Under the pieces are notes generated by a model. It was not told where the DNA came from. It searched no databases and worked only from the letters and a program-made list of their open reading frames with translations. This document shows positions 3,381-8,130 of a DNA stretch of 8,394 nt, in pieces; within the stretch, counting starts at the first letter, position 1; each line of letters starts with the position of its first letter. The DNA lies in assembly GCA_029460375.1 (NCBI GenBank), contig JARPAQ010000135.1:1-8394 (forward strand). The letters run 5' to 3'. The position numbers and the translations under genes were made by a program. This stretch comes from Nitrososphaerota archaeon. GTDB lineage: Archaea; Thermoproteota; Nitrososphaeria; Nitrososphaerales; JACPRH01.

Positions 3381-4238
3381 TTACAGTAAGGTGTCGATTA
3401 TTAGCGCCAAAAAGATGAACCCCAAGTATGGGCTGGATGCTTTGAAGACTATCCACGATATTTCTTTAGTCGGCTTGATGAACAACCAGACGCTCAGCAC
3501 AAGTATAATTATCCCTAGAACCAACGCTGAATAAATGTAGATGAGCCCTAAGGGAGAGTATAAGGGAGCTAATAGGCTGAACAGCACCATAAGAATGGAT
3601 GCTACAGCAATCACTCTTACAGCGGTCTTCTCACTGACTATCACAGGAAGCATTGGGACATTCACTTTTAAGTAATCATCCTTGCTGTGTAACGCTAGAC
3701 TCCAGATATGAGTAGGTATCCAGACCATAACAAGCGCAGCCATAAACAGAGCAATAACCCCTATCTCGTTATTAACAGCAGCGTAGCCGATAAGTACAGG
3801 CATACCTCCTGAAAAGCCGCCCAAAATTATGTTCGCCGGGCTCCGCCTCTTCAGAAATCGACTGTATATCACCACATTATCAAAGATTCCAAGAAACATC
3901 AGGATGAAGGATAGAAGGTTTATTGACGCCGCAAGCACAAGGGAGAACAGAGATAACGCCAGGCCGAAGTAGAGCGCACGCGACGCAGGATGAATCCGTC
4001 GAGTAGGCAGAGGACGAAGTCTAGTCCTGTTCATAACAGCATCTATATCTCGATCAAGATAGTTCGTAAGCGTATTAGACCCTGCTGAACCTAACGTAAC
4101 TGCGACCAGAGTAATTCCGGCAATGATCCACGGAATATCCCTACCTGAAGCTACTATAAGTCCTCCGACTGCTGTGAAAACCAGGAGTAACCATATTTTG
4201 GGCTTGGTGACTTCAAAGTAATTGTAAGCTGGTTTCAT
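3381..4238 (-). CDS. ctaB: Protoheme IX farnesyltransferase (heme O synthase)
   Basis: This 285-residue UbiA-family integral membrane prenyltransferase transfers a farnesyl group to heme B to make heme O for terminal oxidases. The first Asp-rich motif is NYLDRDIDAVMNRTRLRPLP (residues 59-78). The second region, HIWSLALHSKDDYLKVNVPMLPV (177-199), splits into HIWSLALHSKDDY and VPMLPV, both characteristic of CtaB rather than of UbiA or lipid prenyltransferases. About eight to nine hydrophobic segments are spread over the length, as is usual for the family. It is monocistronic by context: its own TATA box lies at 4276-4283 in the gap after the tat operon, and another promoter follows it. No oxidase subunits or heme A synthase are in the window, so whether heme A is also made is not shown. 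Confidence 0.93.
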   Translation of the reverse strand: MKPAYNYFEVTKPKIWLLLVFTAVGGLIVASGRDIPWIIAGITLVAVTLGSAGSNTLTNYLDRDIDAVMNRTRLRPLPTRRIHPASRALYFGLALSLFSLVLAASINLLSFILMFLGIFDNVVIYSRFLKRRSPANIILGGFSGGMPVLIGYAAVNNEIGVIALFMAALVMVWIPTHIWSLALHSKDDYLKVNVPMLPVIVSEKTAVRVIAVASILMVLFSLLAPLYSPLGLIYIYSALVLGIIILVLSVWLFIKPTKEISWIVFKASSPYLGFIFLALIIDTLL

Positions 4239-7676: not shown

Positions 7677-7707
7677 CCTGAATGTCTCCTCATCTCTTAT
7701 TCGGGTT

Positions 7708-7715
7708 TTTTATAA
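7708..7715 (-). promoter_or_regulatory. TATA box for the DUF2061 gene
   Basis: The leftward strand reads TTATAAAA here. Standard archaeal spacing would put the transcription start near 7683, which would leave little room for the Shine-Dalgarno at 7685-7691. The true start may therefore be slightly upstream of that estimate. Confidence 0.4.
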
Positions 7716-7831
7716 GGTTGTAAGGTAATTTGGAAAGCAGTTTAGCAATAATAATTCCTGATAGTACAAACAGCCTAGCCTCACCCCCCATATTTTCCGA
7801 TATTAGCCATTATTCTTTTCATCGTGATCAC

Positions 7832-8089
7832 TCTTTTAGTATTTGTGCAACAGGATATGCTACGGTTTTATTGCGTCAACGTTGCACCAAGGATTAAGAG
7901 ATACATCAATCGTAAGGTGGCGGAAATATGGGATATCATCCTCCTCATATATTCGCCTTGAATGGTGTTATCTTTCCAATACGGATAGCAGTGAAGTCGG
8001 GGTTGTGGCGGCCCATGTCAGGCTGGTCAGTACATCCCCCACGGGCGCAGGAGCCACATGCCTGCGTCCAACCAACCCCCACACTCTTC
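7832..8089 (+). ncRNA. Candidate structured non-coding RNA, family unknown
   Basis: The 495 bases between the DUF2061 gene and the gene at 8172 hold no convincing protein frame but contain strong stems. Stem 1 pairs 7832-7851 with 7881-7901 (one mismatch, one bulge). Stem 2 pairs 7919-7930 with 7946-7957 (11 of 12) plus GGAT/ATCC in its loop. Stem 3 pairs GGGGTTG (7999-8005) with CAACCCC (8073-8079). Stem 4 pairs 8043-8051 with 8061-8069 (nine pairs). Five G-U pairs occur in these stems and all are allowed only on the + strand. The 7990-8080 part is clearly richer in G+C than its surroundings. No SRP RNA tip, RNase P core (GAGGAAAGTCC) or tRNA T-loop is visible. A remnant of a mobile element is the main alternative. 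Confidence 0.45.
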
Positions 8090-8130
8090 TGGAATAGCAC
8101 AAAATTATGTGAATTTCAGCTCCATATCGC

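Follow-up and report, generated by a model that had tools for sequence, protein, structure and literature searches.

The window, by which we mean the whole 8,394-nucleotide stretch of DNA that was analysed, is contig C99 of a 1.05 Mb genome (G000) that is 88.3% complete. Between an ORF on the - strand that encodes a DUF2061 protein and an ORF on the + strand that has no Pfam assignment lies a conserved element with a 77-nt core, at 7996-8072 on the + strand, which is matched by the covariance model described below at 87.8 bits (E 8.9e-18). The parts of this element and the hairpins that precede it are as follows.

7919..7957, + strand: hairpin upstream of the core (z -2.52)
7956..7995, + strand: site of P0, a variable 5′ hairpin that is seen in many other copies and is weak in the window copy
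7996..8002, + strand: 5′ strand of P1 (fold of the window copy; compensatory changes in other copies)
8004..8009, + strand: predicted 5′ strand of a pseudoknot, UGUGGC, in the junction between P1 and P3
8006..8009, + strand: 5′ strand of an alternative extension of P3, mutually exclusive with the pseudoknot
8010..8013, + strand: 5′ strand of P3 (double-sided change at three of its four pairs)
8021..8024, + strand: 3′ strand of P3 (covariation across 43 copies)
8026..8029, + strand: 3′ strand of the alternative extension of P3
8036..8042, + strand: 3′ strand of P1 (fold of the window copy; compensatory changes in other copies)
8043..8051, + strand: 5′ strand of P2 (nine of nine pairs; double-sided changes at four of eight aligned pairs)
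8053..8058, + strand: predicted 3′ strand of the pseudoknot, GCCACA, in the loop of P2
8061..8069, + strand: 3′ strand of P2

The helices read GUGGGG/CCCCAC for P1, GGCY/RGCU for P3 and GGGUGCAGG/CCUGCACCC for P2. In the fold of the window copy, P1 is formed by the pairs 7996-8042, 7997-8041, 7999-8039, 8000-8038, 8001-8037 and 8002-8036, and carries a mismatch between C7998 and C8040.

The original prediction had placed a structured RNA with four stems on the + strand at 7832-8089. The existence of such an RNA is well supported by further copies and their compensatory changes, but the extent was wrong, as the real unit spans 7996-8072 and is joined by a 5′ hairpin in many copies. Likewise, a single one of the four stems, 8043/8069, with all nine of its pairs and one G-U among them, proves to be a conserved helix of the family, namely P2, while P1, P3 and the pseudoknot had been missed. 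The seven pairs proposed at 7999/8079 do exist, but their downstream partner is not conserved, and in other copies the 5′ strand pairs instead with a C-run that corresponds to 8036-8042. The two remaining stems lie outside the conserved core: 7919/7957 has 11 of 12 pairs, including one G-U, and 7832/7901 forms only 14 of 20 pairs when read without gaps, although a minimum-energy fold that allows bulges yields 20 pairs (z -2.59). In other copies, the region that corresponds to 7832-7901 is no more structured than expected (mean z -0.21, 40 copies). The rise in G+C content that had been noted is real, with 0.63 at 8000-8099 against 0.36-0.42 in windows of 7700-7999, and the stretch is gene-free in substance, since an 84-codon ORF starting with TTG covers 7843-8097 but no frame is conserved among the copies. 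Within what Rfam and ARAGORN are able to detect, SRP RNA, RNase P RNA and tRNA are absent, in agreement with the original prediction, which had seen no marks of them. No Rfam 15 family reached its gathering threshold in the window, where the hits below threshold were at chance level, and at 20 other loci the Rfam matches were confined to tRNAs that lie apart from the element.

A DNA search of the same genome showed that parts of window ~7983-8078 recur at five further places, and that repeats are also present in four other genomes of the thaumarchaeal family. From these, 29 cores were aligned without the use of any structure, a covariance model was built, and the search was renewed at E <= 0.1. 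This yielded 43 copies, spread over five genomes that all belong to this family: six in G000, 14 in G001, two in G002, 17 in G003 and four in G004. L137 (21 bits) and L136 (28 bits) have the lowest scores, and an additional candidate in G002 (L171; 15 bits, E 0.083) lies ~80 nt past a quinoprotein gene. Named records that hold true copies come from MAGs, which carry the labels Thaumarchaeota (JACPRH01) and Nitrososphaerales (JASLOE01, JASMAB01), and the family would be placed near the marine heterotrophic Thaumarchaeota described in PMC7300363.

Beyond this family the element was not found. Among 39 relatives searched, all five family members matched and the 34 outside the family did not. In a class sample of 300 genomes, which partly overlaps with the set of relatives, three genomes matched under stricter filters, all of them family members, and the 297 others were without the element; because 15 candidates were scored per genome, a weak copy could escape this search. 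Phage and plasmid collections held nothing that matched window 7960-8072. Pattern hits in seven unrelated records, from Lentibacillus, Muribaculaceae, Sinomonas, Planctomycetaceae, Arcticibacter, Tyzzerella and one viral contig, received no support from the covariance model. Literature searches, whose coverage stopped short of subscription journals, turned up nothing recognisable as the element's RNA.

The paired bases of the copies covary. In the structure-free alignment of 29 copies, double-sided changes occur at seven pairs (26 cells), a result that none of 500 shuffles equalled and that compares with 0-5 in slid controls. In the alignment of all 43 copies, in which 95.1% of cells are paired, they occur at 13 pairs (46 cells), which again was not equalled in any of 500 shuffles, while slid controls give 3-6. 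Both counts of pairs refer to the model that includes the pseudoknot. Fitting of the alignment of 43 copies had used the nested structure but not the pseudoknot; the shuffle counts take no account of relatedness, and many copies are paralogues. The sequence comparison shows covariation in stems P1, P3 and P2, and the element is almost certainly a real structured RNA family, best read as a new, small and lineage-restricted one.

The pairing of UGUGGC with GCCACA would add a six-pair pseudoknot to these stems. Over the 43 copies, 97.3% of its cells are paired and seven of 258 are broken. Two double-sided changes were seen, one from G-C to A-U in L125 and one from C-G to A-U in L136, which is a weak copy; 13 of 500 shuffles reached this number. 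The alternative helix, in which UGGC pairs with the GUCA that follows P3, is paired in 95.9% of cells and shows one double-sided change (24 of 500 shuffles). Pseudoknot and P3 extension compete for UGGC, and both are conserved. The element's RNA may fold as a pseudoknot able to exchange with an extended P3. An invariant set of junction and loop bases around the predicted pseudoknot, a variable but covarying outer helix P0 and the narrow spread of the family would also suit a self-cleaving ribozyme of an unrecorded class, with a short conserved core, a pseudoknot and variable outer stems. However, no Rfam family, among which the known ribozyme classes are included, was matched, and the sequence suggests no cleavage site that could be named; we regard a ribozyme as improbable.

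Folding energy contributes little to this picture. The 281-nt region does not differ significantly from shuffled controls on the + strand (z -1.28, with 20 of 200 shuffles folding at least as well; z 0.23 on the - strand), and the core alone gives z -1.60 on the + strand (nine of 200 shuffles as stable) and z 0.19 on the - strand. With such weak values for both region and core, it is the repeated copies, rather than folding, that reveal the RNA. The region from -100 to -41 upstream of the copies has a mean z of -1.45 over the 40 copies that are kept when the three weakest, L135, L136 and L137, are omitted, and the window copy has -0.7 in that cut. The arms of P0 fit each other within a copy better than in all 5000 permutations between copies (43 copies), but the window copy scores only 4.5. 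The argument that G-U pairs reveal the + strand holds only modestly across the family, in which, apart from one near-invariant G-U pair, there are 62 G-U and 30 A-C cells, and is reversed in P1, where A-C accounts for 18 cells and G-U for 12. The element very probably acts as an RNA of the + strand.

Several known classes were considered and rejected. A box C/D small RNA is not indicated, as the C box RUGAUGA occurs in none of the 43 copies and the D box CUGA in nine, with no copy having both. Core lengths range from 74 to 81 nt over the 43 copies and differ in single-base steps, so that no frame is conserved, as would be needed for a small protein. Translation from the AUG in the loop, behind AGGAG, would produce no conserved peptide: the ORFs run from 7 to >112 codons, and that of the window, which is open to the contig end, is the longest among those listed. 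A 5′ leader or riboswitch fails as a general rule, since in mechanical ORF calls the right-hand ORF lies on the opposite strand in 10 of the 42 copies that have one, and the co-oriented right-hand ORFs vary.

Dispersed copies in numbers of 6, 14 and 17 in three genomes, together with a decayed half copy at L175 (~3670-3800) in which the 5′ hairpin and first strands are retained and the 3′ half is gone, could also point to a dispersed DNA repeat whose palindromes have a function in DNA. REP and MITE repeats are likewise dispersed intergenic palindromes near gene 3′ ends. Unlike them, however, the element shows compensatory changes between copies that are far from near-identical (mean core identity 0.80, all against all, with L135, L136 and L137 left out), and a single orientation to the upstream quinoprotein gene in all 23 of the copies linked to one, the search for such genes having looked upstream only. 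Target-site duplications are not above control, with seven against five in shuffled flanks. We give a DNA repeat of this REP- or MITE-like kind little credence.

The element often lies beside a gene for a quinoprotein resembling PQQ dehydrogenases. When the 1500 bases upstream of each copy were examined with tblastn, 23 of the 43 copies proved to lie downstream of such a gene on the same strand: 10 of 14 in G001, 11 of 17 in G003, one of two in G002, one of four in G004 and none of six in G000, the genome of the window. Pfam family PF01011 was found in all five of the quinoproteins checked. Of the 23 linked copies, 19 have a core that begins 76-120 nt past the stop of the quinoprotein gene, and in the other four this distance is 201-261 nt. 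The element follows roughly one third of a very large quinoprotein family in the two larger genomes, with 10 linked copies for 31 protein matches in G001 and 11 for 29 in G003, where the matches include distant relatives and fragments. No quinoprotein was flagged among those right-hand neighbours that lie on the strand opposite to the element. Gene and element may have been duplicated jointly in many of the linked cases, so that the 23 are not independent.

A DYD motif is present in 19 of 20 element-linked quinoproteins, but it was rejected as an explanation of the element because it is nearly as common without it (13 of 16); one gene was left undecided in this comparison owing to a 3′ flank that is too short. 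This linkage to enzymes and the two conserved, mutually exclusive helices that share UGGC would be expected of a ligand-sensing switch, for PQQ or a lanthanide for example, in which the pseudoknot gives way to the extended P3. Yet the element is not generally a 5′ leader, given the convergent right-hand ORFs counted above, the DYD motif hardly distinguishes genes with the element from those without, and no copy in the window's genome is linked to a quinoprotein. A switch of this kind is accordingly a distant prospect.

Other neighbours recur as well. In G001, and twice in G004, the element lies between an MptE-like gene and a gene for deoxyhypusine synthase (Pfam assignments for the G001 pair only), and in G003 it adjoins the MptE-like gene but precedes another ORF. 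In both G001 and G003 a copy follows an Hsp20 gene and a tRNA-like gene (Pfam for G001 only), and in G002 a copy follows a P-II gene. Overall, the left-hand ORF is on the + strand of the element in 33 copies and on the - strand in 10, and the right-hand ORF is + in 32, - in 10 and lacking in one. The ORFs behind these counts were called mechanically with a minimum length of 100 codons, and a few overlap with the element.

Inspection by eye of 34 quinoprotein 3′ flanks revealed a terminator-like hairpin followed by a C/U run in all of them, with or without the element, although for L060 and L124 only the second arm of the hairpin was in view. Its arms are commonly GACGAUCC/GGAUCGUC; in L046, L054, L191 and others the hairpin commonly reads GACGATCC...GGATCGTC, followed by a C/T run. 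Where an element is present, it lies beyond this hairpin. In the window, 7919/7957 sits roughly where the quinoprotein-linked copies have theirs, and the two may be related.

The edges of the element were compared in eight corresponding copy pairs, seven between G001 and G003 and one within the G004 bin, which were matched by context and sequence. Identity is 0.84-0.97 in the core, 0.65-0.93 in the 40 bases before it and 0.42-0.73 in the 60 bases after it, against 0.46 for random flanks; the 3′ side is less alike than the 5′ side in all eight pairs, and clearly so in five. Similarity drops directly after P2 in each pair, as would be expected of a free-standing small RNA and also of its main rival, a cis-acting 3′ module. 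In such a module, transcripts would end after P2, and the element would set the 3′ end or stability of mRNAs for quinoproteins and of a small number of other transcripts. The co-oriented upstream ORF in 33 of 43 copies (mechanical calls), the short distances from the quinoprotein stop and the lack of a TATA match at most copies are in keeping with such a module. Conversely, the terminator-like hairpin precedes any element in all 34 flanks, the upstream ORF is divergent in 10 of 43 copies (two of these ORFs, at L061 and L130, overlap the element and are probably spurious), and L130 and L127 retain the element although no quinoprotein gene was found within 1500 bases upstream, where one is present at the corresponding G001 copies, L064 and L062 respectively. 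On balance, a 3′ module appears rather unlikely, while still deserving more weight than the ribozyme, the DNA repeat or the switch.

Promoters give a divided answer. A TTTATAT-like box with at most one mismatch is found at 24 of 25 quinoprotein starts, and in 19 of these it lies 29-40 bases before the ATG. A TATA matrix made from 24 quinoprotein promoters showed no enrichment upstream of the copies, with matches at two of the 40 copies that remain when L135, L136 and L137 are omitted, against a shuffled mean of 2.4. At the L045/L047 locus there is a strong match of 12.5 bits, 55 bases before P1, which would put the transcription start close to the 5′ end of P0. Upstream of this locus lies a tRNA-like gene of 97-102 nt (L045:1789-1885 and L047:2197-2298), which perhaps contains an intron.

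The strand that joins P3 to P1 offers a candidate for contact with other transcripts. It contains UAUUUUC in 20 of 43 copies, where 0.085 would be expected in shuffled cores, and in 13 of the 23 quinoprotein-linked ones; the window copy is without it. Its complement was sought in a stretch made up of the ATG and the 28 bases that precede it. GAAAATA was found exactly at nine of 25 quinoprotein starts and with at most one mismatch at 15 of 25, against 0 of 67 and eight of 67 other starts. It is thus possible that UAUUUUC is a seed complementary to the GAAAAUA ahead of many quinoprotein start codons. Pairing energies lend this less weight. The whole RNA pairs weakly with quinoprotein 5′ regions (-30.72 against -29.14 +/- 0.77 for shuffled sequences), and the joining segment alone reaches -8.47 against -7.15 +/- 0.33, while the other two segments do no better than shuffled. 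The advantage disappears in comparison with control genes: the duplex energy of the joining segment at quinoprotein starts, -5.57, is no better than the -5.46 at other genes, although the mechanical definition of the control starts weakens this comparison. In addition, the leaders of the quinoprotein genes are paralogues of one another, and GAAAATA may be common to them for another reason.

While the RNA family itself is well supported, its mechanism has to be inferred. The element is best read as tied to quinoprotein expression, its RNA most likely acting in trans or bound to a protein. The best explanation, which we hold tentatively, is a small structured RNA of the + strand that would help to coordinate the quinoprotein genes; that it does so as a trans-acting small RNA is a similarly tentative proposal. 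Some copies would be transcribed from a promoter of their own and others by polymerases that read through the terminator of the quinoprotein gene, giving an RNA product of ~75-115 nt. This RNA would act in trans, bound to protein or paired to quinoprotein mRNAs, and in the latter case its UAUUUUC would pair with GAAAAUA at their starts. Against this explanation stand the TATA matches that are not enriched, the six copies of the window's genome, none of which adjoins a quinoprotein gene, the missing UAUUUUC in the window copy, the duplex energies, the excess of A-C over G-U cells in P1 and the broken cells of the pseudoknot. A more elaborate version would see in the element a bistable archaeal RNA class, duplicated along with DYD-type (lanthanide-like) quinoproteins, that senses a PQQ or lanthanide cue and whose freed UAUUUUC pairs with GAAAAUA, thereby setting which of some thirty enzymes is made; this version is highly speculative.

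Among known systems, the rrA/rrB/rrF RNAs of E. coli, described in PMC8144298, resemble the element in that several similar small RNAs per genome follow the terminator of a larger transcript. Unlike them, the copies of the element are diverged, covarying, archaeal and often placed beside quinoprotein genes. Similarly, candidates for RNAs and riboswitches from comparative genomics, such as those of PMC2864571, share with the element an intergenic, covarying and compact nature and discovery by comparison of copies, whereas the element is not generally found in 5′ leaders, has many copies per genome and often lies 3′ of one enzyme family. For marine heterotrophic Thaumarchaeota, PMC7300363 reports that genes for PQQ-type enzymes rank with those of highest expression. 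With as many as 17 copies per genome and an apparently pseudoknotted core, the element is a concrete, testable candidate for control of quinoproteins at the level of RNA. To our knowledge, the structured RNAs of uncultivated archaea have hardly been charted.

Two loci merit separate mention. The G004 bin contains two diverged loci with the order MptE, element and deoxyhypusine synthase (G004:C6 and G004:C7; L056 and L065), which suggests a mixture of strains. The copy in L041 begins 5 nt past the ORF L041:817-1649, which has no Pfam match and ends in what we take to be a PEFG-type sorting tail.
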